Shown here: in pieces, positions 39,502 to 57,523 of the stretch
Numbering within the stretch: position 1 is the first letter of the stretch
How the letters are laid out: every line of letters starts with the position of its first letter
DNA from: an uncultured Veillonellaceae bacterium
Lineage (GTDB): Bacteria; Bacillota; Negativicutes; Selenomonadales; Selenomonadaceae
Reading direction: 5' to 3'
NCBI GenBank assembly: GCA_902801565.1
Contig: CADCIX010000014.1
Coordinates: 1 to 63,676 of the forward strand
DNA length: 63,676 nt
Position numbers and translations under genes: made by a program
Notes under the pieces: model-generated
What the model was told of the DNA's origin: nothing
Databases searched by the model: none
Seen by the model: only the letters and a program-made list of their open reading frames with translations

Positions 39502-39505
39502 TGTC

Positions 39506-39937: not shown

Positions 39938-39965
39938 ACGGTTTTGCAAAAAGGGGGCGAATGAC

Positions 39966-40808: not shown

Positions 40809-40886
40809 GTCCGGGATGATAAGCCAACCGTCTCAAATCACTGAAAAAGAGGCGAACAGTTCTTAAGGAACTGTTCCAAGCATGAT

Positions 40887-40920
40887 CGGTGCTGCCGAAA
40901 CAGGCAGCACCGAAAATTTT
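40887..40920 (+). terminator. Rho-independent terminator
   Basis: CGGTGCTGCC-GAAACA-GGCAGCACCG followed by AAAATTTT. Closes the secreted-protein operon and faces the convergent AAA-ATPase gene. Confidence 0.8.
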
Positions 40921-42495
40921 CTATGGCATATCATATTCTTCAATCAGGCACTCATGCTTCCTTGTCTCCTTGTCGTAGCAGATGCCCACGGCGAGAAGTT
41001 TTCCTGCGTAATTTTCCAGTGCATTCCCATAGCGGCGATCCCTGATTTGCTGGATCGCTGCTTTTGCGTTTTTGTCCCATTTGAGCTCCATCACCAGGGC
41101 GGGGAGTTCTGCATGGAGAGGACGGGGAAGGAATACCAAATCGGCATATCCCTTTCCCGTTGGCAATTCGCGGAATATCTTGTACTTCTGTCTTGCGCTG
41201 TAAAAGGCCAGGGAGAGAGTATAGGAAAGGGCATTCTCGTCATTGTACTGGATATGGCTGGTTTCCATATGGGCTTCCTCGATGCCCTTTGCCACGGACT
41301 CCTCATCTTTTGCCAGAACAGCCTGGAGCAGCTTCTCCGATTGCTTGAGGGTGCGGGCCACGATATCCCAATCCGTGGTGGTGATGGCATTGTAGTATTC
41401 CCTGGCGATTTCCTGATTGGGGATGAAGACTTCCTCCGTGGAACTGTCATAGCCCAGGTAGCCCAGATGGACCAGCAGGGTCAGAACGTCATCCGCCGAA
41501 TGGAAGCTGGTCATGTCATTGCTGAAGGTCTTTGTATTGACCATCTGCCGTTCCCCGGCCAGAAGCTTTAGGATGGAGTCCCGAAGCCCGTCAAAGTTCA
41601 TGGTGATATAGATCTTGAGGGCTTCATAGGTCTCTGTCTGGTTCCAATAGGTATCGAATCTGCCGGAGGAGATGGCTCTCACCACGGAATGGGGGTTGTA
41701 GACCTCGCCCACGTCCTGGAAGGAATAGCCGTCATACCACCGCTGGCATTCCTCGAAGCTGCGGCCATATTTCTCGCAGAGAGATTTGACCTCCTCGCTT
41801 GTGAAGCCCACATGAGGAGCAAGTTCTGACGGGTCTTCCATGGAAAACTCCCAGAACATGTTGAGGGCTGAATGTGTCCCGTATTTTTTGATGGGGAGGA
41901 TGCCCGTCATATAGACGAGGGCAATGCTGGAGTTGTCCTTGAGCCAGTCTCTCAAAAAATCCAGATAGAGTTTCTGCCATTCCTTGTTGTCGCGGTATTC
42001 GCGAAAAACGCAATCCCATTCGTCAATGATGATGACAAAGGGGCGTTTTGTCTGGCGGTGGACATCGGACAGGGTGCGGATGAGGTCTTCGGTATCGAAA
42101 TAGCGATAGTCGGGATATTCTTCCATCACGTCCCACAGGATGGATTTTTTCAATCGTTGTAAAAAAGCCTGCATGTCATGGGTTCGGCTGAGAAAGTTCT
42201 GCATATTGAGCTGGATGACATCGTACTTGTTGCGGCAGGCCTCAAAATCGGCGGACTGCGTGATGGCAAGTCCCGCGAAGGTGCTGCTTGCGTCCACGGT
42301 GCGGTCATAGTAGGCCGCAACCATGTTCGCCGCCATGGACTTGCCGAAGCGCCGCGGGCGGCTCACGCAAAGATATTTTTTGCTCGTCCGGAGCACCTTG
42401 TTGGTATAGTTCAGGAGTCCTGTCTTGTCCACATAGATTTCGGAATGGACGGCCTGCCAGAAAAGCTCGTCCCCCGGATTCAGGTAGATTCCCAT
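40921..42495 (-). CDS. AAA-ATPase-like / PD-(D/E)XK protein, type A (intact)
   Basis: 524 residues. The N-terminal P-loop domain (AAA-ATPase_like, PF09820) has Walker A-like RPRRFGKS at 46-53 and Walker B IIIDEWDC near 160. The C-terminal PD-(D/E)XK nuclease-like domain (PF08011) has GYADLVFLP then VMELKWDK, with the acidic and Lys residues present. These proteins are abundant in gut and rumen anaerobes and have no proven role. Divergent from the TPR gene at 42721, sharing the palindrome at 42612. Close paralogs: 59441 (broken) and 61352. Confidence 0.88.
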   Translation of the reverse strand: MGIYLNPGDELFWQAVHSEIYVDKTGLLNYTNKVLRTSKKYLCVSRPRRFGKSMAANMVAAYYDRTVDASSTFAGLAITQSADFEACRNKYDVIQLNMQNFLSRTHDMQAFLQRLKKSILWDVMEEYPDYRYFDTEDLIRTLSDVHRQTKRPFVIIIDEWDCVFREYRDNKEWQKLYLDFLRDWLKDNSSIALVYMTGILPIKKYGTHSALNMFWEFSMEDPSELAPHVGFTSEEVKSLCEKYGRSFEECQRWYDGYSFQDVGEVYNPHSVVRAISSGRFDTYWNQTETYEALKIYITMNFDGLRDSILKLLAGERQMVNTKTFSNDMTSFHSADDVLTLLVHLGYLGYDSSTEEVFIPNQEIAREYYNAITTTDWDIVARTLKQSEKLLQAVLAKDEESVAKGIEEAHMETSHIQYNDENALSYTLSLAFYSARQKYKIFRELPTGKGYADLVFLPRPLHAELPALVMELKWDKNAKAAIQQIRDRRYGNALENYAGKLLAVGICYDKETRKHECLIEEYDMP

Positions 42496-42611
42496 GGTAT
42501 CGCCTCCCTGTCAAGAACGGTTGCGCTTGCCATAAGTATATCACAAATATTTCTTGCTTGCAGGAAGTTCATGAAAACAGACACCTGCGTTCCTATGTCA
42601 CGAAATTGCCG

Positions 42612-42630
42612 GATTTGTCAATGACAAATC
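42612..42630. promoter_or_regulatory. 19-bp palindrome between nuclease and TPR genes
   Basis: GATTTGTCA-A-TGACAAATC, perfect. It is identical to the site at 46961-46979, and each sits about 100 bases before an LPP20/TPR start codon. A TATAAC-like -10 follows at about 42676. Confidence 0.7.
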
Positions 42631-42720
42631 TTTCTCTGCCGATGGGGCAGGAGGTTTTTGGAGGAGAGATGGCGAATATAACAGATAGCGATATTTCTTG
42701 ACCTAAGGAGCTGATTCAGC

Positions 42721-43959
42721 ATGCGAACGATACAACAACTCCCCTTCGCCGTCCTCGGAGCAGGTGCGGCCTTCACCGTCCTTTGGGGCGTTGCCGACCC
42801 CATGGCAGCCTATGCCGAGGTGAAGGTGGTGGAGGCAGACGGATATTACATCATGGGAGACGGGCCGGAGGAGAACCAGGCCGTGGCAGAGGAGCGGGCG
42901 CGGGTGGATGCCAGGCGTGCCGCCATCGAGCAGGCAGGCATTTGCGTGGAAAGCCTTTCCGATGGGAAGATGAGCAAGCTGACCAAAGACGAGATCCGTA
43001 CCATCTCCGCCAATGTGCTGGAGGTGCAGGAGGCGGAGGTCACCTCCGAAGCCCTTGGCGGTACCACCATCCAATACCATTGCCATATAAAGGCCCGTGT
43101 GGATACCTCCAATATCACGCAACAGCTTCAGCAGGACAGGTGGCAGCTTGAGGATGCGGCGAGGCAGAACAAGGAGCTGGAGGAACAGTTCGCCAAGGTC
43201 CATGCGGAACTGGAAGAGATGAAGGAGAGATACAAGACTGCAACGGAGGCGGAGAAGCAGGAAATCAACCGCGAGGTGAAGCGGAATGAGGATGAGTTCA
43301 CGGCGGTGCAGTGGGATTCTAAGGGACGTGAACTGAACAATAAAAAGGATTACCATGGTGCCATCGAGTGCTTGCAAAAGTCCATCGAGCTTGCCCCGAA
43401 GTATGCGGCCCCATGGAGCGATATGGGATATGCCTATAACGACTTGGGGAACTACGACAAGGCCATTGAGTGCTACCAAAAGGCCATCGAGCTTGACCCG
43501 AAGGATGCAACTAGTTGGAACAATATGGGGATTGCCTACAAGAACCTGAGCAACGATGACAAGGCCATCGAATGTTACCGGAAGTCCATCGAACTTGCCC
43601 CGAAGATTGCAATTACCTGGTACAATATGGGCTATGTCTATGACGACCTGGGTAACTATGACAAGGCCATTGAGTGCTTGCAAAAGTCCATCGAGATTGC
43701 CCCGAAGGATGCAACTGCTTGGAATGATATGGGATTTTCCTACAATAAGTTAGGCAACTATGATAAAGCCATCGAGTGTTGTCAGAAAGCCATCGAACTT
43801 GACCCGAAGTTTGCAAATCCATGGAAGCATATGGGAACTTCCTATTACCAACTGGGCAACTACGAAAAAGCCGTGGAATGCTTCCGGAAAGCGATCCGGC
43901 TGGACCCGGACTACGAGGGCGCAAAAGAAGGGCTTGCCCTTGCACAGGCAAAGCTGTAA
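42721..43959 (+). CDS. Secreted LPP20-TPR protein
   Basis: 412 residues. Signal peptide MRTIQQLPFAVLGAGAAFTV... cut near AYA-EV, LPP20-like domain (ARVDARRAAIEQAGICVES, DEIRTISANVLEVQEA), coiled coil (NKELEEQFAKVHAELEEMKE), then six near-identical TPR units of the pattern PWSDMGYAYNDLGNYDKAIE. AAGGAG precedes the ATG. Homologous over its N-terminal half to the genes at 47068 and 54989; the number and type of TPRs differ. Confidence 0.82.
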   Translation: MRTIQQLPFAVLGAGAAFTVLWGVADPMAAYAEVKVVEADGYYIMGDGPEENQAVAEERARVDARRAAIEQAGICVESLSDGKMSKLTKDEIRTISANVLEVQEAEVTSEALGGTTIQYHCHIKARVDTSNITQQLQQDRWQLEDAARQNKELEEQFAKVHAELEEMKERYKTATEAEKQEINREVKRNEDEFTAVQWDSKGRELNNKKDYHGAIECLQKSIELAPKYAAPWSDMGYAYNDLGNYDKAIECYQKAIELDPKDATSWNNMGIAYKNLSNDDKAIECYRKSIELAPKIAITWYNMGYVYDDLGNYDKAIECLQKSIEIAPKDATAWNDMGFSYNKLGNYDKAIECCQKAIELDPKFANPWKHMGTSYYQLGNYEKAVECFRKAIRLDPDYEGAKEGLALAQAKL

Positions 43960-44057
43960 AGGTTTCTTCAGGCGACTGGCGAAGCAGATCAAACTGTGAC
44001 CTGCAACCACTGTCATAATATACTGGAGGCACAAGGCAGGTATCGGAGGTGCAGGAA

Positions 44058-45869
44058 ATGCAGGAAAGAAAACGTCCTATGCCCGTGGGCATCGAGGATT
44101 TTGGGGATCTGATCCGGAAGGAATACTGTTTTGTTGATAAGACCCGGTTTATCCGGGATTTGCTGGATTTTCAAACGCCGGTCACCCTCATCACCCGCCC
44201 CCGCCGCTTCGGTAAGACGCTGACCCTTTCCATGCTCCGCTATTTCTTCGATATGGAGAACGGGGAGGAAAACAGGGAACTTTTCTGCGGGCTGGATATC
44301 GAGAGGGCCGGGGAGAGGTACATGAGGGAGCAGGGAACCCGGCCCGTGGTGTTTCTTACGCTGAAGGAAGTTCGGGCGGGAGAGCAAGCTGTGATGATGG
44401 ATCTTTTGGCGAGAACATTGCAGGATCTCTATCTGAACTATTCCTATTTGCTTGCCAGTGAGCGATTGACCAAGGAAGAAAAAAATATTTTTCGACGCGT
44501 GGTTGAGCTTGGTGGAAACGAGGCGGATTTTCGTCTTTCCCTTTACACGCTTATGCAATGTCTGGAAAAACATCATGGAAAAAAGCCTGTCCTTCTTTTG
44601 GACGAGTGTCCCACCTCGTTCAGAAACATAAAAATAATTGTTCGAGATGTAGTCAGATGCTAGGAAGAGGAGGGCGGCGTAGCGGTGGCTACGCCAACTG
44701 CGGGCAATTATTATGGATATGAACGAGGCGGGACACGAGTATGATGCCCCGATTCTCTCCGCCTGGGAGAATGGCTATTACGAGGAATGTATCGACTTCA
44801 TGCGGGGCTTTCTGGGTTCTGCCTTCAAAACAAATCCGTCCTTGGGGTTTGCTGTCCTGACAGGAGTGACGAGAGTTTCCAAGGAAAGCATCTTTTCAGG
44901 GCTCAACAATCTGGAGGTATGCAGTGTCCTGTCCGACAGCTATGCCGATGCCTTTGGTTTTACACAGGAGGAAGCGGCAAGGCTCATGGAGGAATGCGGG
45001 GTTGGGGACAGGATGTCGGAACTGAAGAAGTGGTATGACGGCTATCGGTTCGGGCAGGTGGAAATCTACAATCCCTGGTCGGTGATCAATTTCATCAAGA
45101 ATGGCTGCCAATTCCGGCCCTATTGGATGAACACTTCCGGCAATTCTATCCTGAAGGAGCTTTTGAATCGTGTGGATACCCGTCGCCACAGGGAACTGCA
45201 GGGGTTGGTTCAAGGGAAAGCGGTGGAATCTCCTGTGTTGGAGAATATTGTCTACGTAGATATCCATACGAATCGGGATGCCCTCTTCATGATGCTTATG
45301 ACTACAGGGTATTTGAAGCCTGTGGAGACTTGGAAGGACGAGGATTGTGCAGACTGGGTATTGCTCAAGATACCGAATCTTGAGGTTCGCATGGCGTACC
45401 GAAAGGAGATTCTGGGCCACATTGTCCCAAGTCAGGGGGAGACCCTTCTTCGGGATATGCTGCGCTCCATGACGGCCGGGGATGGGGAAGGCTTTTGGAG
45501 AACCTGTCGGATCTGTTGCGGGATTTTGTGAGCTATCACGACATAGCCCATCCGGAGAGCTTTCACCATGGCTTGCTGTTGGGGCTTTCCGTCCTGCTGG
45601 ATGGGGAGTATCGTGTAGAGTCCAACCGCGAGAGTGGCTATGGCTGTTTCGATATCGCTTTCTTTCCCTTAAAGACGGGTACTCCCGGTATCGTTCTGGA
45701 ACTGAAATCCGCAAAGTCCGAGGAGGAACTGGAAGAAAAAGCCAAGGAAGCCCTGCGCCAGATTGAGGAAAAAGCATATATCACGGAACTTTCCCGCCAG
45801 GGGGTGGGGGAGGTCTGGAAGTACGGCATTGCCTTCTGCGGGAAGAAGGTATGGCTGGAACGGGGCTGA
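44058..45869 (+). pseudogene. AAA-ATPase-like / PD-(D/E)XK gene, type B, broken by a MITE and a frameshift
   Basis: Aligns end to end with the intact gene at 53276. Piece 1 (44058-44606) holds Walker A TRPRRFGKT and ends at VLLLDE. A 129-bp insertion follows. Piece 2 resumes at YDAPILSAWENG (44740) and runs to about 45490. One base is missing near 45491-45497 compared with the intact copy, which shifts the frame. Piece 3 (to 45869) has the nuclease motif FDIAFFPLKT and VLELKSAK. GGAGG precedes ATG 44058. Confidence 0.88.
44607..44735. mobile_element. MITE-like insertion with terminal inverted repeats
   Basis: The left end TGTCCCACCTCGTTCA and the right end (reverse complement) TGTCCCGCCTCGTTCA match, and similarity continues to about 31 bases. 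CGAG flanks both sides (44603-44606 and 44736-44739), a 4-bp target duplication. Removing 44607-44739 restores the reading frame exactly as in the intact paralog. An inner hairpin GGCGTAGC-GGTG-GCTACGCC lies at 44676-44695. No transposase inside. Confidence 0.85.
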
Positions 45870-45899
45870 CCGTTGGACGAATATAAGGAGTTGAGCAGA

Positions 45900-45920
45900 A
45901 TGAGAACCATCCATCAAATA
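45900..45920 (+). pseudogene. Stranded start of an LPP20-TPR gene
   Basis: ATG 45900 encodes MRTIHQI, the conserved opening of the LPP20-TPR signal peptides (compare MKTIHQIPF at 47068 and 54989). The preceding 30 bases match the linker between the intact AAA gene and TPR gene at 54956-54988. Similarity stops after the seventh codon; the rest of the gene is gone. Confidence 0.65.
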
Positions 45921-45955
45921 GTAAAACCGTCGCTGCCCCATGCGGGCAACGACGG
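45921..45955 (-). terminator. Rho-independent terminator of the Rpn gene
   Basis: On the minus strand CCGTCGTTGCCC-GCAT-GGGCAGCGACGG is followed by TTTTAC. Confidence 0.7.
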
Positions 45956-45987
45956 CAGAACATCCGATGAAGTGCAGATGCTTGCGT

Positions 45988-46866
45988 TCAGCTATAGGCC
46001 AAGTTGTTCATTTTGGCGATGCGCTTGACATTTTCCAAGGAGGTAGAGGCGAGACGTGAAATCTTTTCATAAGGTTCATGTTCTTGCAACAGATTGATTA
46101 CAAATTCCGTAGTTTTTTCATCTGCAACTTTTGCAGCAGTCTTTTCCGTAGCTTCTGCCGCAGCCTCTGCCGCCCTGACTTCCATAGCCCGGTTCCAGTC
46201 CCACTTGAAGTTTACCATATCGAAAACCTCCTCCTGTTCCTTCTTGGCGAAATAGTCTGCCAACAGGTCATTTTCTTTGCAGTAGCTAATCGCCGATGTG
46301 ACCGATTGGCGGAGGGTTTGCCCTAAGGCGAGTTCCTTGCGAACCTTATCGATGAAAATGCTGTAGCATTTGAGGTCGTGACATTTTTCCAGCAGTTCCT
46401 TGTTTTCCTCATAGTTGATGTTATAGGCGGTGACAACCAGTTCCAGTGTATGCTCGTTTTCCTCGAAGGCATCGGACAGGCGCATCATCCATTTCTCCGG
46501 TGCAGCTGTCGTACCATTGTAGAACATAAAAAAGTGTGGCACAGGAAGAGGAACGCGAGCTTTTTTGTAAGGGGCATCGGGATTCACTTTTTGCCGGTAC
46601 AGTTTGGCGATATACCAAAGCATGCGGAGCGGTATATTCTCCGAAAGAGTTGACTGGTGCTCCATCAGTACAATGTGGTGGCTGCCTGCCATGAAGCTGA
46701 CATCGTTCTTGATATCCTCGAAAAAGGTTCCCCGCAGGGTGGTAATCTTGATGTCCTTCAGGGTAACCAGTTTCCCGGTCAATGCCTTGTAGATGCGTTG
46801 CAGACGCCGTCTGTCGTTGAATATATCTCGAAACAGAGAGTCCTTGTAAATGCGTTTTGCCTTCAT
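45988..46866 (-). CDS. Rpn-family recombination-promoting nuclease / putative transposase
   Basis: 292 residues with a PD-(D/E)XK_2 domain (PF12784): IYKDSLFRDIFND at the N-terminus, NDVSFMAGSHHIVLMEHQST with the catalytic-type Asp and ExQ, and LRMLWYIAKLY. The C-terminal half holds an Ala/Glu-rich helix (RAAEAAAEATEKTAAKVAD). Rpn proteins of E. coli cut DNA and raise recombination. ATG 46866 with AAGGTGG upstream. Divergent from the TPR gene at 47068 across the palindrome at 46961. Confidence 0.8.
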   Translation of the reverse strand: MKAKRIYKDSLFRDIFNDRRRLQRIYKALTGKLVTLKDIKITTLRGTFFEDIKNDVSFMAGSHHIVLMEHQSTLSENIPLRMLWYIAKLYRQKVNPDAPYKKARVPLPVPHFFMFYNGTTAAPEKWMMRLSDAFEENEHTLELVVTAYNINYEENKELLEKCHDLKCYSIFIDKVRKELALGQTLRQSVTSAISYCKENDLLADYFAKKEQEEVFDMVNFKWDWNRAMEVRAAEAAAEATEKTAAKVADEKTTEFVINLLQEHEPYEKISRLASTSLENVKRIAKMNNLAYS

Positions 46867-46960
46867 CCATACCACCTTCTGAGAGAATTATACCATGTTT
46901 ACGGTTTGTTCTCAAGATGGGAGCTGTTCCCCTGTCCCGGTTGTTGTCACGAAATTGCTG

Positions 46961-46979
46961 GATTTGTCAATGACAAATC
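46961..46979. promoter_or_regulatory. 19-bp palindrome between Rpn and TPR genes
   Basis: GATTTGTCA-A-TGACAAATC, identical to 42612-42630. TATAAT at 47026-47031 could be the -10 of the TPR gene; the palindrome would then centre well upstream of the start point, more like an activator site than a blocking operator. Confidence 0.7.
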
Positions 46980-47067
46980 TGTTTCCGCCGTTAGAGCAGG
47001 AGGTTTTACGCGGGGCGGTGGCGAATATAATAGGTCGGACATTTCTTGATACGAGGAGTTGAACAGA

Positions 47068-48220
47068 ATGAAAACCATCCATCAGATTCCTTTCGCTGCC
47101 CTTGGCATGGGCGCGGCCTTCACTGTCCTTTGGGGCGTGGCCGACCCGGTGGCGGCCTTTGCAGAGGTCAGGACCTATACCGGCGTGGGCAAGTGCGCCA
47201 TGGGGGATCTGGTGTCTCCGGAACAGGCGAAGAACTACGCCCGCGAGATGGCGCTGCAGAATGCCAGGGAACAGGCGGGGGTGTATCTCACGAGCTACAC
47301 CCGCACCACCAATACCAAACTGAGCGCCAAGGAGATCACGGCCATTTCCAACAACATCACCGAGCTGGTGGGCGAGGTGAAATACACGCAGACACCTACC
47401 GAAGCCGATGGCGTGCCCGTGGTGGTCTATACGGCGACTCTGCAGGCCAATGTAAATACGGACGGCATCAAGCAGTATTTGGAGCGGGGCGAAGAGGAAA
47501 GAGTCACCATCGTCAGCCAGAGCGAACAGGCGCAAAAGGACATCGCAGGCAGCCTGGAGAAGATCGAGCGGCTGAATGAAGCCTACAACAAGGCACAGTC
47601 GGAAGCGGAGAAGGAGAGGATACGCGGCGAGTTCGCCGAGGCCGACCGGCACTTATTGGCCGAACAGAAGAACAGTGAAGGTTTCGAGCTGTTGTATAAA
47701 AAGGATTATCAGGGTGCCATCATGTGCTTGCAAAAGGCTATAGAGCTTGACCCGAAGTTTGCATATCCTTGGAACAATATGGGTTATGCTTATTACGGCT
47801 TGGGTAACTATAACAAGGCCATCGAATGCTATCATAAGGCTATAGAGCTTGACCCTGATTATTCACATCCCTGGAACAATATAGGCGATATCTATCAGAG
47901 GTTAGGGGACTGGCAAAAGGCTATGGAATGCTATCGTAAAGCCATAAGCCATAGCACTTGACCCTGATTATTCACATCCTTGGAACAATATAGGCGATAT
48001 CTATCGGAAATTAGGAGACGGCCAAAAGGCCATCGAATGCTATCAAAAGGCTATAGCACTTGACCCGAATTATTCACATCCTTGGAACAATATGGGCTAT
48101 GTCTATAACAGTTTAGGCAACTATGACAAGGCCATTGAATGCTTCCGGAAGGCACTCGAACTGTATCCGGATTATGAAGCCGCCAAAAAGGGACTCGCGC
48201 TTGCACAGGCAATGCTGTAA
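47068..48220 (+). pseudogene. Secreted LPP20-TPR gene with a slippage frameshift
   Basis: Signal peptide MKTIHQIPFAALGMGAAFTV..., LPP20-like domain (AREMALQNAREQAGVYLTS), coiled coil, then TPRs (PWNNMGYAYYGLGNYNKAIE). The frame stops at 47961 because AAAGCC-ATAAGCC-ATAGCAC contains a 7-base near-duplication. Dropping seven bases restores IALDPDYSHPWNNIG and a frame that runs through two more TPRs to TAA 48218-48220, ending AAKKGLALAQAML as in the gene at 42721. The short 298-residue product may still be made; phase variation is possible. Confidence 0.82.
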
Positions 48221-48949
48221 ATGGGCAGATATGACCGGGCCATTGAGGACTGCAACGAAGCCTTGGCCATTGATGCAAAGGATGCCGTCGCGTATTACAA
48301 TCGTGGTGGTCTCTACTATGATAAAGGGGATAATGATCGTGCCATTGCGGACTACGACAAGGCAATCTCCCTGAATTCCAAGTATTTTGAGGCATATAAC
48401 AATCGGGGCAACGCTTATGCCCATAAGGGGAACTATACCCATGCCATTTCAGACTATAGCCGGGCATTGGTATTGAATCCGGATTTTTCCATTGCGTACT
48501 ACAATCGCGGCAGTGCCTATATTGATACAGGTGAGTACGACCGTGCCATTGCCGACTTTGACAGGGCACTGGCCTTGTCGCCGAAGAATGCCGATGTGTA
48601 CTATGATCGCGGCCTTGCCTATGACGGCAAGGGGGATTTTGACCGCGCTATTGCCGACTACAGTCAGGCCTTGGCCTTGGATCCCAAGGATGTGAAGGCG
48701 TATATCAATCGCGGCAACGCCTATCTTCATAAGGGGGACAATGATTCTGGTATCGCCGATTATAACGCGGCTCTGGCCATAGATCCCGAGGATCCGAATG
48801 CGTATTATGATCGCGCTCTCGCCTATGCCAGAAATGGGGACTATGACCAGGCCATGGCTGATTGCCGGAAGGCACTGGAGCTTAACCCGGATGATGCCAA
48901 TGCCAAAGTGTTGATGCAGCGTATCGAAGAGGCAGAGAGTGGGGACTGA
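48221..48949 (+). CDS. TPR protein without signal peptide
   Basis: 242 residues, essentially seven TPR units of the AYNNRGNAYAHKGNYTHAIS type. ATG 48221 directly follows the stop of the preceding frame (TAAATG), so translation may be coupled to it. There is no signal peptide, LPP20 domain or coiled coil, unlike its relatives. Probably the 3' part of another TPR gene joined here by recombination; it may be cytoplasmic if made. Confidence 0.6.
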   Translation: MGRYDRAIEDCNEALAIDAKDAVAYYNRGGLYYDKGDNDRAIADYDKAISLNSKYFEAYNNRGNAYAHKGNYTHAISDYSRALVLNPDFSIAYYNRGSAYIDTGEYDRAIADFDRALALSPKNADVYYDRGLAYDGKGDFDRAIADYSQALALDPKDVKAYINRGNAYLHKGDNDSGIADYNAALAIDPEDPNAYYDRALAYARNGDYDQAMADCRKALELNPDDANAKVLMQRIEEAESGD

Positions 48950-49039
48950 TATCTGCTATGGAGAAGTCGTTGTTTTGCGATGTTGCCAGTGAACTTGATT
49001 GAAAAGAGCTTTTGCCGGCGGAAATAAAGGAGTAAGACT

Positions 49040-50809
49040 ATGGAAACTTCAGCGAAGATAAAACGCGTGTTCACCATTGAAGAAAAATGTACCGGGTGCA
49101 ACAAGTGCATTGCTGTTTGTCCCGTGGATTGTGCCAATCAGGTGTATCGCGCCTACGATGGAGCCCGAAAGATCATGGTGGATAACGAATATTGCATCGC
49201 CTGTGGCGCTTGTTTGTCCGTCTGTGACCATCAAGCCCGGGATTATGCGGATGATACGGCAGCCTTTTTGAAGGACCTGGAAAAAAGAATCCCCATGACG
49301 GTGGTGGTGGCTCCGGCGGCACAGGTGCATTTTGCGGAACTGCAGCGCCTCTTTGGATGGCTGAAATACCTGGGGGTGGAAAAGATTTACGATGTGTCCT
49401 ACGGAGCCGATTTGGCCACCTGGGCTTACCTGCGCTCCCGGGAAGCGGACAAGGCATCGACCTCCATCGGCCAATCCTGTTCCGCCATCGTGAATTATTG
49501 TCAGCGCTATATGCCGGAGCTGCTGCCCTATCTCATGCCCATTCAGAGCCCGTTGCTGTGTCTGGCGATCTACCTGCGGCGTCATTTGGGACTGACCGGC
49601 TCCATCGCCTTTCTTTCCCCTTGCGTTGCCAAGGCCGAGGAAATCGTCGATGCCAATACGGAAAACCTCGTCAACTACAATGTCACCTTCAAGAAACTGC
49701 AAGCGAAACTCGTCGCCGATGAGGTGGATTTGTCCCTTTATCCGGCTCTGGACTTTGATGGCTTCCCGGCAGGCTTGGGCCACGTCTATAGCCGCCCCGG
49801 CGGTTTTACTGAGACCATCCGGGCCACGGAGCCTGATATTTGGATACGGCAAATGGAGTCTGTGGATCGGGTTTATCCCTACTTGCAGGAATACTGGCAA
49901 AGGCTCCAGGAGGGCAAACCTGTGCCGGAACTGCTGGATGTCCTGAACTGCAGCGGCGGCTGCAACTGCGGTACCGGCACCAGAAGAAACGTGGCGCCGG
50001 ACGATATGGATGCCATGACCAACGCCAAGAAGGCGAAAGTGCGGGAACGCACGCTGAAAGAATCGGCAGAGGGCATCGTCTATTCGCCCCACGCATATTT
50101 TGACCGCCATCTTGACTGGCGCGATTTTCAGCGCAGATACACAGCCGAGCCAATGGCCTCCGGAAAGTTCGTGGACGAGGATTTGGAACCGGTTTTTTCC
50201 TTCTTGCACAAAAAGACCCCGCAATCGCGGAACATCAATTGCCACGCTTGCGGCTACGGCGATTGCAAGCGCTTTGCCCAGGCATTGAAACTTGCCATGA
50301 ACGTGCCGGAAAGCTGTATTGATTACCAACGCAGCGTACTGAAGATGGATATGCTTACGGGACTCCTGAATCATGGCGGGTTAGGGGAAGCCATGGAAAA
50401 TGTCCTGCGCTGGTATCGGGCGGAACCGATTGACTTGTCCCTGATCATGATGGACGTGGACGATTTCAAGTCGGTCAACGATCGTTTTGGACACGATGTG
50501 GGCGATATTGCCCTGCAAACGGTGGCAAGGGCTATCGAAAGGAACCTTCGCGCCACGGATTATGCCGGGCGTTGGGGCGGCGATGAATACATGATCATTC
50601 TCCCCAACACCAGCAAAGAGGCCGCCATGACCGTGGCCGAGCGCATCCGGCAGGATATTGCCGCCTCTGACGTTCTCCCCGGCGGGGCGCGTTTTACCTC
50701 CAGCGCCGGCATTGCTGCAGCGCAAAAGGGCGACTCCTCGGTGGAGTTTTTCCAGCGGGCCGATCAGGCCCTGTACGAGGCAAAGAAGCATAAACATCGA
50801 AAACAATAG
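49040..50809 (+). CDS. [FeFe]-hydrogenase-type H-cluster protein fused to a GGDEF domain
   Basis: 589 residues. Two [4Fe-4S] ferredoxin sites (Cys 17/20/23/27 and 52/55/58/62). An iron-hydrogenase large-subunit domain (about 85-370) keeps all four H-cluster cysteines: L1 QSCSAI (147), L2 SPCVAK (195), L3 NCSGGC (304, 308). A third cluster domain has CHACGYGDC and a later Cys (401, 404, 409, 426). The GGDEF domain (about 436-585) has DMLTGLLNH, signature GGDEY (513-517) and I-site RATD (504-507). Likely a soluble sensor of H2 or redox state that makes c-di-GMP. Start ATG with AAGGAG upstream. Confidence 0.85.
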   Translation: METSAKIKRVFTIEEKCTGCNKCIAVCPVDCANQVYRAYDGARKIMVDNEYCIACGACLSVCDHQARDYADDTAAFLKDLEKRIPMTVVVAPAAQVHFAELQRLFGWLKYLGVEKIYDVSYGADLATWAYLRSREADKASTSIGQSCSAIVNYCQRYMPELLPYLMPIQSPLLCLAIYLRRHLGLTGSIAFLSPCVAKAEEIVDANTENLVNYNVTFKKLQAKLVADEVDLSLYPALDFDGFPAGLGHVYSRPGGFTETIRATEPDIWIRQMESVDRVYPYLQEYWQRLQEGKPVPELLDVLNCSGGCNCGTGTRRNVAPDDMDAMTNAKKAKVRERTLKESAEGIVYSPHAYFDRHLDWRDFQRRYTAEPMASGKFVDEDLEPVFSFLHKKTPQSRNINCHACGYGDCKRFAQALKLAMNVPESCIDYQRSVLKMDMLTGLLNHGGLGEAMENVLRWYRAEPIDLSLIMMDVDDFKSVNDRFGHDVGDIALQTVARAIERNLRATDYAGRWGGDEYMIILPNTSKEAAMTVAERIRQDIAASDVLPGGARFTSSAGIAAAQKGDSSVEFFQRADQALYEAKKHKHRKQ

Positions 50810-50871
50810 GTGATTGCTGATAGACAACGAAACAAACAATGGACGGTCTGTTATATGGGCAGTGACGGCCA

Positions 50872-51516
50872 TCAAATGAAACGCAGCATCTGGACCAGTT
50901 CGTGCGGTTTCTCTTCATCAGTGGATTTGGTCACACGGCGGTCAAAAGCCTTGAATCCGTTTTCGGCATAGAAATCAAGGAGGAAAGGATTGTCCTCGCA
51001 TTCCAGGAACTCCACCACGCCGCCAAAGTCATATTGAGTTCTCGCAATGCGGCGATTGGCAAGGTCCAGGAGTTCCACTCCTTTGATTCGATTGCTTTTC
51101 GGCAAAGCAAAATTCTTTCCAATTTGGGCAATGAGATAGGCTGCGGCAGTATAGGTAATGAGATAGGCTGCGGCAGTATAGGTTCCATCATCGGGATTCA
51201 GCGTGCTGACCCGTGCCAATTTTCTCTCCATCGTTCGGCTGATGGATGAGGCTCGAACAGAAATCGGCTTGATGGCAAGAGTGTAGTAGCCTACGAGAAT
51301 ATCTTTATGTGCGGTATTGCAAAATACCAAATAGGTTATCGATTGATTTTTCTTGGTAAATTCAATGGAGCTATGCTTTAAGAAGTGTTCAACCTCTGGA
51401 TTTGACGGACAGGAAAAGCCCTCGATCAGATGGCTCAATGCATTCTCGCCTATATAAGCACAATCATCCTTGTCGAGCGTGCGGCGTAAATTCATTGCAT
51501 AGAAAGAAACCATCAT
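50872..51516 (-). CDS. GNAT-type toxin of a toxin-antitoxin pair
   Basis: 214 residues, with features of GNAT acetyltransferase toxins: VGYYTLAIKP near the middle, VEFLECEDNPFLLDFYAENGFKAF near the C-terminus. Such toxins acetylate aminoacyl-tRNA. A 27-bp exact tandem duplication (51130-51156, 51157-51183) repeats the segment YTAAAYLI in frame, next to the expected cofactor-binding region, which may disturb activity. Its start overlaps the antitoxin stop (ATGA). Confidence 0.65.
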   Translation of the reverse strand: MMVSFYAMNLRRTLDKDDCAYIGENALSHLIEGFSCPSNPEVEHFLKHSSIEFTKKNQSITYLVFCNTAHKDILVGYYTLAIKPISVRASSISRTMERKLARVSTLNPDDGTYTAAAYLITYTAAAYLIAQIGKNFALPKSNRIKGVELLDLANRRIARTQYDFGGVVEFLECEDNPFLLDFYAENGFKAFDRRVTKSTDEEKPHELVQMLRFI

Positions 51517-51719
51517 AGCTTGCCTTCTTCCCTGAGTTGTGTCTTGATGCGAGCGGCGAATGCAGCAAGCTCTTGTGGCTCTGTCAGTTCACGCCCCACA
51601 GGTTCCACAGGCTTCCGATGCTTTGCCTCTTCCTCCGATTCCTCTAACGCCTGCACGAAACGCTCTACGGCCTTTGGGTCGGTAATGAAAAAATTATGGG
51701 TGATACTGGACGTTGCCAC
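51513..51719 (-). CDS. Antitoxin partner of the GNAT toxin
   Basis: 68 residues from GTG 51719, chosen because AAAGGAGG lies 7 bases upstream; the longer frame to 51809 has no such site. Sequence SITHNFFITDPKAVERFVQA followed by a charged Glu/Lys-rich tail, as in small antitoxins whose tail caps the toxin. Upstream gene of the pair and overlapping it by 4 bases, the usual order. Confidence 0.65.
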   Translation of the reverse strand: MATSSITHNFFITDPKAVERFVQALEESEEEAKHRKPVEPVGRELTEPQELAAFAARIKTQLREEGKL

Positions 51720-51780
51720 GGCAATTCCTCCTTTGCAGAAAACTCTTTTCATAAATATTCTTCGCTTTCTTTCTGTTTTC

Positions 51781-51823
51781 AGTATATCGCCCCAACATTT
51801 CCCTGTCAACGACAGTGGGGCGA
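51781..51823 (-). promoter_or_regulatory. Promoter and inverted-repeat operator of the toxin-antitoxin pair
   Basis: On the minus strand TTGACA (51804-51809), 17 bp, TATACT (51781-51786). Inverted repeats TCGCCCCA / TGGGGCGA (51787-51794, 51816-51823) and CTGTC / GACAG (51803-51807, 51811-51815) cover the -35 box, as expected for autorepression. Confidence 0.7.
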
Positions 51824-51848
51824 AACATCATAGGGAGCTGATTCATAA

Positions 51849-51922
51849 TGAAAACCGGCAGAAGAAGATTTTCATTGAATTTTCGAAGTGTTTTGCAGAG
51901 AAAGGGGGGTGCATACAGATGA
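51849..51922 (+). CDS. Possible short leader ORF before the TPR gene
   Basis: 24 codons, MKTGRRRFSLNFRSVLQRKG..., preceded by GGGAGCTGATTCATA, which resembles the leader before ATG 42721. Its TGA overlaps the ATG of the TPR gene (ATGA). It could be a coupling leader peptide or a relic start. Confidence 0.25.
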
Positions 51923-53148
51923 AACGAACTTTTCCATTCACTCTGCTGTTGGGCATGGCAATCCTTCTCGCCACGCAGTGGGGGCTGTCGGGCCGGGCCT
52001 ATGCCGGTGCAGGGGAGGGGACGATGTCCCCTTCTTTGGAGGAGCAGTTGAGGCTGATTTATGCCGAGGCCTATTTCAACCGCGGTCTGGAGTACAGCGA
52101 CAAGGGAGAGAATGCCCTTGCCATTGCCGACTACACCGTGGCTCTGGCCCTGAACCCGAAGCATGTCAACGCTTACAATAACCGTGGCTGCACCTATGAC
52201 GACATGGGGGAGTATGACCTTGCCATTGCCGACTACACCAAGGCTCTGTCCCTGGAGCCGAAGAATGCCGAGCTGTACAACAATCGGGGGGTGTCCTACA
52301 AGAATAAGGGGGAGTATGATCTTGCCATTGCCGACTATACCAGGGCACTGGCCCTGAATCCCAAGCATGTGGATGCATACAACAACCGCGGGGCAGCATA
52401 CGATGGCAAAGGGGAGTATGACCTTGCCATCGAGGACTATAACCAGGCACTGGCTCTGGACCCGAAGTATGCCAAGGCGTATTTCAATAGCGCCCTGGCC
52501 TTCCAGCACAAGGGCGAGTATGACTTCGCCATCGTTGATTACAATCAGGCACTGGCCCTGGAGCCGGACTATGCCGCTGCCTATTACAATCGCGGATCTT
52601 CCTATCATGCCAAGGGAGACTATGATCTTGCCATTGCGGACTATACCAGGGCATTGGCTCTTCGTCCGGACTACGCCGATGCCCTGCTCAATCGCGGCGT
52701 GGCCTATTACAGCAAGGGCGAGTACGATAAGGCCATTGCCGACGATACCAGGGTGCTGGAACTGCGCCCCGACTACGCCGGGGGATACAACAATCGCGCT
52801 CTGGCCTACAAGGAAAAAGGTGAATACGACCTCGCCATCGCTGACTACGATCAGTCTTTGGCCTTGAACCCGGAAGCCGCCGCAACCTATTACAATCGCG
52901 GCACAGCATATGAGAGCAAAGGCGAGCATGATCTTGCCATCTCTGACTTCGACAAGGCGCTGGCCTTGAACCCGGAGGATGCCCTGGCGTACCTGAACCG
53001 CGGCAACGCGTATTATGGCAAGGGAAACTATGACCGGGCCATCGCCGACTGGAAGCAGGTTCTGGCTCTGGATCCGGAGAATGGGCTTGCAGAGAATAAT
53101 ATCCAGTCGGTGGAAAAAGAAACGGGGAATACTGCCTTTTCCATGTGA
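51919..53148 (+). CDS. Secreted TPR protein (ten repeats)
   Basis: 409 residues: signal peptide (MKRTFPFTLLLGMAILLA..., cut near AYAGA), then about ten TPR units of the AYNNRGCTYDDMGEYDLAIA type to the end. No LPP20 domain. ATG 51919 has AAAGGGGGG upstream. The last residues (about NTAFSM) are read out of frame from a stranded piece of a CAP-domain gene (53126-53224), so the native 3' end was replaced by recombination. Confidence 0.8.
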   Translation: MKRTFPFTLLLGMAILLATQWGLSGRAYAGAGEGTMSPSLEEQLRLIYAEAYFNRGLEYSDKGENALAIADYTVALALNPKHVNAYNNRGCTYDDMGEYDLAIADYTKALSLEPKNAELYNNRGVSYKNKGEYDLAIADYTRALALNPKHVDAYNNRGAAYDGKGEYDLAIEDYNQALALDPKYAKAYFNSALAFQHKGEYDFAIVDYNQALALEPDYAAAYYNRGSSYHAKGDYDLAIADYTRALALRPDYADALLNRGVAYYSKGEYDKAIADDTRVLELRPDYAGGYNNRALAYKEKGEYDLAIADYDQSLALNPEAAATYYNRGTAYESKGEHDLAISDFDKALALNPEDALAYLNRGNAYYGKGNYDRAIADWKQVLALDPENGLAENNIQSVEKETGNTAFSM

Positions 53149-53224
53149 CGGGGACGGCGGTGGATGACACGGCCTTTGACTGGGGAACCTTTGCCGCGGA
53201 CGTGATCTGCCTAGTCAATGAGGA
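53126..53224 (+). pseudogene. Stranded fragment of the CAP-domain gene
   Basis: About 99 bases nearly identical to 57091-57189 inside the CAP-domain gene (the part encoding FHVTGTAVDDTAFDWG). Similarity begins inside the end of the TPR gene and stops abruptly before the AAA gene. Confidence 0.88.
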
Positions 53225-53275
53225 AAATATTTGCAGGAGAAATTCTTTGGGCGCTGTGTATCGGAGGTACTCAAA

Positions 53276-54955
53276 ATGCAGGAAAGAAAACGTCCCATGC
53301 CTGTGGGCATCGAGGATTTCAAGAAGCTGATCCAAAAGGAATATTATTTCGTGGACAAGACCCGTTTTATCCGGGAATTGATGGATGTTCAAACAGAAGT
53401 AACCCTCATCACACGCCCCCGCCGTTTTGGAAAGACGCTGACACTCTCCATGCTCCGGTATTTCTTCGATATGGAGAATGGGGAGGAAAACAGGGAACTT
53501 TTTCGCGGGCTGGATATCGAGAGGGCCGGGGAGAAATACATGAGGGAGCAGGGAACCCGGCCTGTGGTGTTTCTCACCCTGAAGGATATCCGAAGTGATC
53601 ATTGGGAAGGGGAACTGGAAAAATTTGCGCTGCATCTGTCGAATTTGTACCAGAATTACATTTTCTTATTGAAATCTCCCGCACTGACAGAGGTAGACCA
53701 TGAAGTGTTTCGGACCATTTGGAAGAGAAACGGAAGCCCTGGGGAGATGGAAGGTGCCATAACCAGCCTTTGCCGCATGCTGGAAAAGCATCACGGGAAA
53801 AAGCCCGTCCTTCTTCTGGACGAGTACGATGCCCCTATTCTCTCCGCTTGGGAGAATGGTTATTACAAGGAATGCATTGAGTTTGTGAGAGGGTTTCTTG
53901 GTTCCGTCCTCAAAACGAATCCTTCCCTGGATTTTGCAGTCCTGACAGGAGTGACGAGAGTCTCCAAGGAAAGCATCTTTTCGGGACTCAACAATCTCAA
54001 GGTCTGCTCCATACTGTCCGATGCCTACTGCGATATTTTCGGCTTTACTCAGGAGGAGGCCGCAAGGCTCATGGAGGAATGCGGGGTAGAGGACAAACTG
54101 CCGGAGCTCAAGAAATGGTATGACGGTTATCGCTTCGGGCAGGTGGAAATCTACAACCCCTGGTCGGTCATTTGCTATATTGGCGAGGGATGCAGGTTCC
54201 GTCCCTACTGGCTGAATACATCGGGCAACAGCATTTTGAGAGACCTTTTGGAGCATGTGGACAGGCGCAGGCAAAAGGAATTGGAGGGGTTGCTCCAAGG
54301 AAAGGGAGTGGAGGCTCCCGTCATGGAGAATGTGGTCTATTCTGATTTGTCGCACCATCGGGATGCCCTTTTCATGATGCTCATGACTGCCGGATATCTG
54401 AAGCCGGTGGAGACTTGGAAGGACGAGGACTGTGCAGACTGGGTGCTGCTCAAGATACCGAATGTTGAGGTTCGCATGGCGTATCGAAAGGAAATTCTGG
54501 GGCACATTGTCCCAAGTCAGGGGGAGATCCTTCTTCGTGATATGCTTCGCTCCATGACGGACGGGGATGCGGAGGGGTTCCTGGAGAACTTGTCGGAACT
54601 TTTGCGGGACTTTGTAAGCTATCATGATGCAGCCCAGCCGGAGAGTTTCCACCATGGCTTGCTGCTGGGGCTTTCCGTCCTGCTGGATGGGAAGTATCGT
54701 GTGGAATCCAACCGTGAAACTGGCTATGGACGTTTCGATATTGCCTTTTTCCCACTCAAGACGAATACTCCCGGTGTGATTCTGGAACTGAAATCCACAA
54801 AGTCCGAGGAGGAACTGGAGGAAAAAGCCAAGGAAGCTCTGCGTCAGATTGAGGAGAAAGCCTACATCACGGAACTTTCCCGCCAGGGGGTGCAGGAGGT
54901 CTGGAAATACGGCATTGCCTTTTGCGGGAAGAAGGTATGGCTGGAACGGGGCTGA
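53276..54955 (+). CDS. AAA-ATPase-like / PD-(D/E)XK protein, type B (intact)
   Basis: 559 residues: opening MQERKRPMPVGIEDF, Walker A TRPRRFGKT (46-54), Walker B VLLLDEYDAP, conserved KKWYDGYRFGQVEIYNPWSV, and a C-terminal PD-(D/E)XK core (GRFDIAFFPLKT then VILELKST). ATG 53276 with GGAGGT upstream. The LPP20-TPR gene begins 33 bases after its stop, so the two are co-transcribed. The broken copy at 44058 keeps the same neighbour as a relic. Type A copies share the domains but differ at the N-terminus. Confidence 0.9.
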   Translation: MQERKRPMPVGIEDFKKLIQKEYYFVDKTRFIRELMDVQTEVTLITRPRRFGKTLTLSMLRYFFDMENGEENRELFRGLDIERAGEKYMREQGTRPVVFLTLKDIRSDHWEGELEKFALHLSNLYQNYIFLLKSPALTEVDHEVFRTIWKRNGSPGEMEGAITSLCRMLEKHHGKKPVLLLDEYDAPILSAWENGYYKECIEFVRGFLGSVLKTNPSLDFAVLTGVTRVSKESIFSGLNNLKVCSILSDAYCDIFGFTQEEAARLMEECGVEDKLPELKKWYDGYRFGQVEIYNPWSVICYIGEGCRFRPYWLNTSGNSILRDLLEHVDRRRQKELEGLLQGKGVEAPVMENVVYSDLSHHRDALFMMLMTAGYLKPVETWKDEDCADWVLLKIPNVEVRMAYRKEILGHIVPSQGEILLRDMLRSMTDGDAEGFLENLSELLRDFVSYHDAAQPESFHHGLLLGLSVLLDGKYRVESNRETGYGRFDIAFFPLKTNTPGVILELKSTKSEEELEEKAKEALRQIEEKAYITELSRQGVQEVWKYGIAFCGKKVWLERG

Positions 54956-54988
54956 CAGTTGGACGAATATCATAAGGAGATGATCATC

Positions 54989-56755
54989 ATGAAAACCATT
55001 CATCAAATTCCTTTCACTGCCCTTGGCATAGGGGCGGCCTTCACGGTCCTCTGGGGCGTGGCCGATCCCATGGCAGCCAATGCGGAGGTGAAGATGTATA
55101 CCGGCGTAGGGACTTGTACCATTGGAGATATTGGGACACCGGCCCAGGCGAAGAATCTGGCCCGGGAAAAGGCCCTGCAGAATGCCAGGGAACAAGCCGG
55201 AGTCTATGTCAGAAGTTATACCCACTCCACAAACGCGAAGCTGGCCGACAGTGAAATCTCCGCTATCACCAATACCATTACCAGCCTGATGGGGGAGGTA
55301 AAGTATGAGCAGAAAGCCGGCATGGTAGACGGCCAGCCGGTCATAATCTACACAGCCACCCTGCAGGCCAATGTGGATACCGAAGGGATTAAAAAATGGC
55401 TGGATCGTGGCGGGGAGGCAAATGCTATCTATGTCGAGGAAAATGAAATTACGCAAAAGAGCATCAAAAACAACATTGAACAGCTGGACAGCATAACCGA
55501 GCAGTACAACAAAGCCGGGTCAGCGCAGGAGAAAGAGCAGCTGAAGAAGGAATACAACGAAGCAGATAAAAAACTGTTGGCCGACCAGAAATACGATGAG
55601 GCTTTGGATTGTTGGTACAAAGGCGACTATGATAGCGCAATCAGGCTTTGGAGCGAAGTCATTGAACTGGAGCCTGACAACGATAAGGCGTACTTCTCTC
55701 GCGGACGTGCCTATTACGACAAGAAGGATTATGACCGGGCCATTGCTGATAATGACAAGGCCATTGCCCTGAATCCCAAGGATGCTCGTTACTATAATAA
55801 CCGCGGTCTTGATTATTATGAAAAAGGTGAGTATGATCGCGCCATCGAGGACTACAACAAGGCACTGGCGCTTGACCCCAACAAGGTCAATGCATATAGC
55901 AACAGGGGCTCTGCTTATAGAGCGAAAGGCGACTATGACCGCGCCATCGCTGATTGTGAAAAGGCCTTGTCCATAGACCCTGACTATGCCGATGCCTATA
56001 ATAATCGCGGTAATCTTTATTGTGACAAAGGCGACTATGACCGGGCCATAGATGACTATGACAAGGCAATCTCCTTGAATCCGGATAAAGCAATGTTCTA
56101 CAAAAATCGTGGCAATACTTATATAAATAAAAAGGACTATGACCGTGCCATGGTTGACATCAACAAAGCCATATCTTTGGACCCGGATTATGCCGATGCC
56201 TATGATAATCGCGGCATAATTTATTATTGGCAAGGTGATTATAACCGCGCCCTTGAGGACTACAACAAAGCCATATCTTTGGACCCCAACTTTGCTGAAG
56301 CCTATAGTCATCGCGGCAATATTTATTATGATGTCAAAGAAGACTATAAACGCGCCATGGATGACTACAGCAAAGCCATTGCCCTGAAGCCGGACTATGC
56401 TGACGCTTATCACCATCGCGCTGGCTGCTACAATATGCAAGGGGCGTATGATCGTGCCATCGCTGACTTAAACAAAGCCATTGCCCTGAAGCCGGACTAT
56501 GCTAACGCTTACTACAGACGTGCCTTGGCTTATGGGAAAAAAGGTGATTATGATCGTTCCCTGGCTGACTACAACAAAGCCATTGCGCTGGATTCAGGCA
56601 ATGCCTATTATTATGCCGACCGCGGTTGTATTTATACGTTAAAGGGAAATTATGACCGCGCTCTTGTGGATTTCCAAAAAGCACTGGATTTGGGGCTGGA
56701 TAGCGAAAGAGCAGCGGCGACCAGGGAGCTGATTGAAGCAATCAAGGAAAGATAA
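54989..56755 (+). CDS. Secreted LPP20-TPR protein (eleven repeats)
   Basis: 588 residues: signal peptide MKTIHQIPFTALGIGAAFTV..., LPP20-like domain (AREKALQNAREQAGVYVRS, SEISAITNTITSLMGEV), coiled-coil linker, then about eleven TPRs (AYNNRGNLYCDKGDYDRAID). The longest and most complete member of the set. AAGGAG precedes it; co-transcribed with the AAA gene upstream and perhaps the CAP gene downstream. Confidence 0.85.
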   Translation: MKTIHQIPFTALGIGAAFTVLWGVADPMAANAEVKMYTGVGTCTIGDIGTPAQAKNLAREKALQNAREQAGVYVRSYTHSTNAKLADSEISAITNTITSLMGEVKYEQKAGMVDGQPVIIYTATLQANVDTEGIKKWLDRGGEANAIYVEENEITQKSIKNNIEQLDSITEQYNKAGSAQEKEQLKKEYNEADKKLLADQKYDEALDCWYKGDYDSAIRLWSEVIELEPDNDKAYFSRGRAYYDKKDYDRAIADNDKAIALNPKDARYYNNRGLDYYEKGEYDRAIEDYNKALALDPNKVNAYSNRGSAYRAKGDYDRAIADCEKALSIDPDYADAYNNRGNLYCDKGDYDRAIDDYDKAISLNPDKAMFYKNRGNTYINKKDYDRAMVDINKAISLDPDYADAYDNRGIIYYWQGDYNRALEDYNKAISLDPNFAEAYSHRGNIYYDVKEDYKRAMDDYSKAIALKPDYADAYHHRAGCYNMQGAYDRAIADLNKAIALKPDYANAYYRRALAYGKKGDYDRSLADYNKAIALDSGNAYYYADRGCIYTLKGNYDRALVDFQKALDLGLDSERAAATRELIEAIKER

Positions 56756-56800
56756 CGGGGTGCGATCAGGATTTTTTCAACATGCCGGGAGGGGAACGAC

Positions 56801-57523
56801 ATGGAAAAGAGGAGAAGCGTGAAGATGGTGTTGGTTCTGCTGGTACTGTGCCTGTTTGGCATGTGTGGATGGGATGAGGCAGAAGCCGCCGTCCAATACG
56901 AGGAGGAACTGACCCGGCCCACGGGGACGAACTGGGGATTTCCGGGCTATCGGGCGGAATATGAGGTGAGCGACCCGGAAATCGCGGAAATCCTGCAGGG
57001 GAAGAACGGGGAATACCGCATCCATCTGATCAAGCCCGGCGATGTGGTGGTCAAGGTGACCTTTTTCAGCGAAGGCGAGAGACTGGAGCCGGAATACTAC
57101 CTTTTCCATGTGACGGGGACGGCGGTGGATGACACGGCCTTTGACTGGGGAACTTTTGCCGCGGATGTGATCCGCCTGGTCAATGAGGAGCGCGCCAAGG
57201 TGGGGGTGAAGCCCTTGCGGGCGGCCTTTGATCTCTCGGAGGAGGCTGCGATACGGGCAGGGGAGGTTTCCGAGGTGTATTCCCATACGCGTCCGGACGG
57301 AACCTCCTTCTCCACCGTGTTTGAGGAAGGCAGCTACGAGGCCGTGGGCGAAAACCTCCAGGCAGGGGCATCCACCCCGGAGGAAGCCATCCGGCAATGG
57401 ATGAATTCCCCCAGCCATCGGGAAAACATTCTCTCCGAGGAATATGAGGAACTGGGCGTGGGATATATCTACGTGCCGGAAAGCAAGTACAAGCATTACT
57501 GGGTGCAGCTCTTCCGCCGCTGA
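56801..57523 (+). CDS. Secreted CAP-domain (SCP/PR1-like) protein
   Basis: 240 residues: signal peptide (cut near AEAAV), a beta-rich module (about 30-105), then a CAP domain (PF00188) with VIRLVNEERAKVGVKPL, HTRPDGTSFSTVF, YEAVGENLQAG, AIRQWMNSPSHRENIL and a final YWVQLF. The His/Glu set of the CAP cavity is present. Bacterial CAP proteins are extracellular; activity is unproven. Source of the fragment at 53126. Confidence 0.88.
   Translation: MEKRRSVKMVLVLLVLCLFGMCGWDEAEAAVQYEEELTRPTGTNWGFPGYRAEYEVSDPEIAEILQGKNGEYRIHLIKPGDVVVKVTFFSEGERLEPEYYLFHVTGTAVDDTAFDWGTFAADVIRLVNEERAKVGVKPLRAAFDLSEEAAIRAGEVSEVYSHTRPDGTSFSTVFEEGSYEAVGENLQAGASTPEEAIRQWMNSPSHRENILSEEYEELGVGYIYVPESKYKHYWVQLFRR

Follow-up and report, generated by a model that had tools for sequence, protein, structure and literature searches.

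A single gene in the window, the 63,676-nucleotide stretch of DNA from an uncultured Veillonellaceae bacterium that was analysed here, encodes a protein in which a sensory-type [FeFe]-hydrogenase module is joined to a predicted diguanylate cyclase. On balance, although without great confidence, we read this fusion as a one-protein transducer of H2 or redox state into c-di-GMP, i.e. a sensory [FeFe]-hydrogenase with a diguanylate cyclase output. This interpretation, put forward in a first-pass annotation of the window, is supported as the best reading available. The features in its favour are the domain order, the ligand and catalytic residues, their conservation, the swapping of modules and the heptad-spaced linkers. 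In the proposed mechanism, the N-terminal ferredoxin clusters would link the H-domain electronically to the low-potential pool of the cell, and H2, together with the redox state linked to it, would act at a slow, signalling-type H-cluster. The event at the H-cluster would then cause a conformational change, transmitted first by the C-terminal [4Fe-4S] domain and then by a short helix whose heptad phase is fixed. This would alter the mutual orientation of the two GGDEF domains of a dimer and with it the rate of c-di-GMP synthesis, on which the RxxD motif would exert feedback. We infer that H2, rather than the general redox state, is the ligand, that the [2Fe] subcluster is inserted into the H-domain, and that the fusion dimerises and has c-di-GMP synthesis as its output.

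HydDB divides the sensory [FeFe]-hydrogenases into C1 (histidine kinase), C2 (chemotactic) and C3 (phosphatase), and its class 'diguanylate cyclase-linked (putative)', 2c, comprises [NiFe] enzymes only (PMC5037454). The outputs listed in the first-pass annotation (PAS, kinase or phosphatase modules) are known ones, but this list was too short, the putative chemotaxis outputs being already present in HydDB C2. GGDEF is absent from the text of a 2022 review on [FeFe]-hydrogenases (PMC8924675), and a 2022 census of c-di-GMP inputs holds no hydrogenase or Fe-S sensor (PMC8846402). No account of an [FeFe]-hydrogenase/GGDEF fusion was found in the literature searched, an earlier mention in subscription papers being possible. 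Within that literature, GGDEF is a new output for the sensory [FeFe]-hydrogenases; the domain pair may already be annotated in databases without comment.

The open reading frame is a real gene, preceded by AAGGAG, and its parts follow one another in the order first proposed (Table 1). Pfam models matched the protein at 6.7e-23 for Fe_hyd_lg_C and at 1.4e-38 for GGDEF (132.6 bits, cut-off 23.8), with Fer4 dicluster models at about 1e-7 and FeS (PF04060) at 5.7e-4. The two ferredoxin-type clusters and the further [4Fe-4S] domain that had been claimed are borne out by these matches, and the cysteines of the latter (401, 404, 409 and 426) fit Cx2Cx4Cx16C exactly. A PDB sequence search returned, among the matches listed, only GGDEF and [FeFe]-hydrogenase chains. 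The GGDEF domain does carry an I-site, its RxxD standing five residues N-terminal of the signature, which was rightly reported as GGDEY. As the metal- and base-binding residues D472, N480 and D489 and the catalytic GGDE are all intact, the active site is not degenerate, and by its signature and these residues the GGDEF half is a predicted diguanylate cyclase. GGDEY is also present in two close relatives of the fusion, the others having GGDEF.

Table 1. Features of the fusion gene and its product (positions in the window; residue numbers refer to the protein)
Feature	Position	Strand	Basis
Gene encoding the H-domain/GGDEF fusion protein (589 aa)	49040..50809	+	single open reading frame
AAGGAG, likely ribosome-binding site, ATG 7 nt further on	49027..49032	+	sequence
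Ferredoxin-type [4Fe-4S] motif 1, C17/20/23/27	49088..49120	+	Pfam, cysteine spacing
Ferredoxin-type [4Fe-4S] motif 2, C52/55/58/62	49193..49225	+	Pfam, cysteine spacing
H-domain, Fe_hyd_lg_C, residues 86-311	49295..49972	+	Pfam, predicted structure, fold match
L1 H-cluster ligand C147; preceding position (CpI C299) is Ser	49478..49480	+	alignment
L2 H-cluster ligand C195 in S-P-C-x-x-K	49622..49624	+	alignment
L3 H-cluster ligands C304 and C308; CpI M497 replaced by Leu	49949..49963	+	alignment
C-terminal [4Fe-4S] motif Cx2Cx4Cx16C, residues 401-426	50240..50317	+	Pfam, cysteine spacing
10-residue helical linker up to DxLT motif; Cys-to-Asp spacing 11	50318..50347	+	predicted structure, spacing count
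GGDEF (diguanylate cyclase) domain, residues 435-586	50342..50797	+	Pfam
I-site RxxD, R504-D507	50549..50560	+	sequence, alignment
Active-site signature GGDEY, 513-517	50576..50590	+	sequence, alignment

The four cysteines that had been named as H-cluster ligands (147, 195, 304 and 308) were numbered correctly, match the ligands of motifs L1 to L3 by sequence alignment and are conserved without exception in the 55 aligned relatives, together with S193, K198 (the retained CpI K358), L302 and the four C-terminal cysteines. In CpI, C299, M353 and M497 mark positions that are typically changed in sensory enzymes (PMC10055695), and in the fusion they are replaced by S146, S193 and L302 respectively. 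At position 299, Ala accounts for about 43% of sensory sequences, Cys for 17%, Pro for about 10% and Ser for about 10% (PMC10055695). S146 is found in the window protein alone, the other 54 of the 55 aligned proteins having Pro, which is a point against the transducer reading. A reading of C147 as the proton-transfer cysteine (QSCSA read against TSCCP) was rejected: since C147 is invariant and preceded by Pro in 54 of 55 proteins, it is the ligand. An AlphaFold2 model of the fusion (mean pLDDT 93, pTM 0.81) superposed with residues 2-370 on CbA5H (Z 34.9, rmsd 2.6, 350 residues) and with residues 4-371 on CpI (Z about 31, rmsd about 3, about 350 residues); the fold search used the full-length model and the H-domain dominated the matches, so that these bear on residues 2-371. 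A Cx2Cx4Cx16C motif after the H-domain is a hallmark of the putative sensors of group C (M2f) and group D (M2e) (PMC8163306, PMC13104023). Judged by its sequence, the N-terminal part of the fusion is a sensory-type [FeFe] module.

In the comparison of the H-cluster region with HydA and the sensory groups that had been recommended, the region aligns with CpI and is of sensory type by its altered positions, but fits neither group C nor group D fully, as far as the published TmHydS and TamHydS residues, on which this comparison rests, define them. Like group C (M2f; TmHydS) and group D (M2e; TamHydS), the fusion has two N-terminal [4Fe-4S] motifs, an H-domain and a C-terminal Cx2Cx4Cx16C, with CpI C299, M353 and M497 replaced, and like TamHydS it has S in place of M353 and L in place of M497 (PMC8163306). 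Unlike group C, it has no PAS match, the DxLT of the GGDEF domain following 11 residues past the last cysteine, and where in group D conserved aspartates (D378 and D403 of TamHydS) adjoin the first and the last cysteine of the C-terminal cluster, the fusion has N400 and S425 (PMC13104023). Because it has neither the PAS domain nor the flanking aspartates, it was filed under neither group; in contrast to both, its output GGDEF sits in the same chain. As to HydDB [FeFe] C2, chemotactic (putative), the nearest relatives of the sensor outside its own clade carry MCP, the output after which C2 is named, whereas the fusion itself has GGDEF in the place of MCP. The same logic, H2 sensing coupled to c-di-GMP, has been proposed for HydDB [NiFe] group 2c (putative) (PMC5037454), but there the enzyme is an unrelated [NiFe] hydrogenase, while here an [FeFe] H-domain is fused in one chain.

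Carriers of the same domain order were looked for in other genomes, as the first-pass annotation had advised, and the full fusion was found in other Selenomonadaceae and in one Acidaminococcaceae MAG (L043). Among 189 Selenomonadaceae genomes, the sensor is present at E <= 1e-60 in 31 and the full-length fusion in 11 (the window's own and ten relatives at 55-69% identity); pieces running into GGDEF in three further genomes bring the total to about 14. Pairwise comparison of relatives gave dN/dS values of 0.08-0.23 in the sensor half and 0.18-0.41 in the GGDEF half, both of which are under purifying selection. A chimera or assembly artefact was rejected: independent assemblies encode the same full-length protein in unrelated neighbourhoods, in one case on a 348-kb contig in a genome assembled into 8 contigs (G053), and the fusion is therefore not a product of chance or assembly. 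The neighbouring genes differ between genera and no conserved operon partner was found. Shorter H-domain proteins from genomes of the same class (L025 to L028; 38-42% identity over the H-domain) have no output domain, and the three that were aligned (L025 to L027) have no C-terminal FeS motif.

The sensor module is fused to a range of outputs, of which MCP is the commonest, the others being HisKA-HATPase with or without a receiver, HD-GYP-type HD_5 (mostly in Lachnospiraceae), SpoIIE, GGDEF-EAL and GGDEF; since it is combined with so many partners, it acts as an input domain. In a tree of the sensor region alone (95 rows, quick method, SH-aLRT support only), the window's GGDEF clade comprises 9 rows with support 92 and has as its sister a Selenomonadaceae MCP clade (6 rows, support 99), and the node joining them has support 100. 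A second GGDEF clade (L021, L023 and L024) lies elsewhere, the HD-GYP fusions form a single clade with support 100, and the starred branches require at least two changes for GGDEF. A swap between MCP and GGDEF behind a common sensor, in either direction, is well supported by these sequences, and GGDEF has been joined to the sensor at least twice independently. The second GGDEF clade (clade 2) has L021, L023, L024 and L146 to L149 as members. HD_5 fused to the sensory [FeFe] module was seen in L100, L103, L105, L106, L110 and L113, three of them Pfam-checked, and the domain content of these fusions suggests an H2-controlled breakdown of c-di-GMP.

The spacing between the last FeS cysteine and the DxLT Asp is 11 residues in every protein read from clade 1, the window's clade, 18 in clade 2 and 32 in the GGDEF-EAL proteins (counted by pattern, which left one clade-2 protein with an altered motif unscored). 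All three spacings are 4 mod 7, an agreement that was spotted post hoc, rests on three lengths and would arise by chance about once in 49. In Rec-GGDEF proteins, too, linker lengths are spaced at multiples of 7, and activation shifts the coiled coil into another register (PMC8041772); phytochrome-GGDEF linkers mostly follow the same multiple-of-7 rule (PMC9587094). The fusion thus resembles DgcR, WspR and the phytochrome-GGDEF protein PadC in having GGDEF behind a helical linker, with linker lengths of its three fusion kinds that differ by multiples of seven, and differs from them in its input, an [FeFe]-hydrogenase/FeS module. By analogy, this suggests that the FeS domain passes a conformational signal to GGDEF via a helical stalk. 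As the last heptad position a is not Leu, the switch of the window clade need not be canonical.

The host genome holds 28 GGDEF matches and two PilZ proteins, and it encodes an NADH-dependent A6-type HydABC, a group B hydrogenase, HydE and HydF. HydG was not detected in this genome (99.8% complete), the best match being a ThiH adjoining ThiG; this is a point against the transducer reading, since it leaves H-cluster maturation in the host in doubt. In the congener G002, hydG directly follows hydA, and the host hydA is located 984 bp from the end of its contig (C19), with brxA in between. HydG is also absent from G001, G219 and G042 and from seven of the eight clade-2 genomes, although prototypical hydrogenases are encoded there, while most carriers of the window clade have it at full length. 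A simple assembly gap is tenable only in part, given the clade-2 genomes; the absence reflects either systematic assembly loss, true loss, or maturation without canonical HydG or with a replacement. The absence of HydG from the host and from several relatives with two prototypical [FeFe]-hydrogenases concerns G000 (the host genome), G001, G219, G004, G027, G050, G222 to G225 and the locus L123 (C19:1-8000).

The main rival to H2 sensing is a general redox input, in which the intracellular low-potential redox state would be read through the ferredoxin clusters (reduced ferredoxin, or cluster damage by O2) and H2 would matter only through its equilibrium with the low-potential pool. The two ferredoxin motifs, the C-terminal [4Fe-4S] site and the H-cluster add up to four redox centres, sensing of redox or O2 is common among c-di-GMP enzymes (PMC8846402), and in TamHydS one N-terminal cluster becomes reduced under H2 (PMC13104023). 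We nevertheless hold this input to be rather unlikely, for a plain redox sensor would need no H-cluster pocket, and all 55 aligned proteins share the ligands of that pocket, K198, S193 and L302. For the transducer reading itself, H2 does not reduce the C-terminal cluster of TamHydS (PMC13104023), which makes a relay by electron transfer alone improbable.

It is improbable that the H-domain binds a [4Fe-4S] cluster alone, as in Nar1/Narf, and serves as an FeS sensor devoid of H2 chemistry. Four cysteines would suffice to bind a cubane, HydG was found neither in the host nor in most clade-2 genomes, the three clade-2 relatives examined have Gly at S193, and L024 has no equivalent of K198; given the missing HydG, the clade-2 fusions may themselves be FeS sensors without a [2Fe] site. 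The window clade, however, retains S193, K198, E201 and L302, full-length HydG is present in most of its carriers, and the host, which has two prototypical [FeFe]-hydrogenases along with HydE and HydF, must obtain H-clusters somehow. A GGDEY domain that is a degenerate receptor for c-di-GMP or GTP, with no cyclase activity, would explain the deviating signature, but it seems very improbable in view of the intact active site, the recurrence of GGDEY in two relatives within a clade otherwise of GGDEF type, and the purifying selection on the GGDEF half.

The direct link from sensor to c-di-GMP is strengthened by the existence of two independent GGDEF fusions, in addition to those with GGDEF-EAL and HD-GYP. 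Since the fusion lies in one protein and recurs in related genomes, H2 may directly set the choice between swimming and settling in the cells that carry it, which belong to a rumen-associated family. More tentatively, and with chances that we place a little short of even, one-protein transduction from H2 to c-di-GMP by [FeFe] modules could be a recurrent, unrecognised system of anaerobes, through which H2 sets swimming or settling in gut and rumen Bacillota with no intermediate kinase; this reading is based on the joining of the H-cluster module to GGDEF twice, to GGDEF-EAL at least once and to HD-GYP once. The level of H2 governs rumen fermentation and methane formation. A direct link between H2 and lifestyle, if true, would tie microbial gas exchange to attachment and motility. 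Sensors of group C abound in rumen data and have been proposed as H2 sensors (PMC6776011). With the sensor and an assayable enzyme in one chain, the amount of c-di-GMP made per minute could serve as a direct readout of H2 signalling, and the MCP-, HD-GYP- and EAL-linked relatives provide natural comparisons for the GGDEF fusion.

The fusion gene lies among genes for long TPR-repeat proteins and AAA-ATPase-like/PDDEXK_9 proteins (39000-57000). Several of the TPR-repeat proteins have similar N-termini (47059-47958, 48221-48946, 51520-53145 and 54959-56752), and one AAA-ATPase-like/PDDEXK_9 open reading frame is apparently frame-broken (44049-45869). Two adjacent small open reading frames on the minus strand (98 and 214 aa, 50875-51809) have, by eye, the look of a DUF1778/GNAT toxin-antitoxin pair and had no Pfam match at 0.001. 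Elsewhere in the host genome, the gene of the group B [FeFe]-hydrogenase is located directly 3' of a gene that reads as GGDEF-EAL (L122:4618-7896, on contig C15), an arrangement that makes another link between hydrogenase and c-di-GMP in this host possible.
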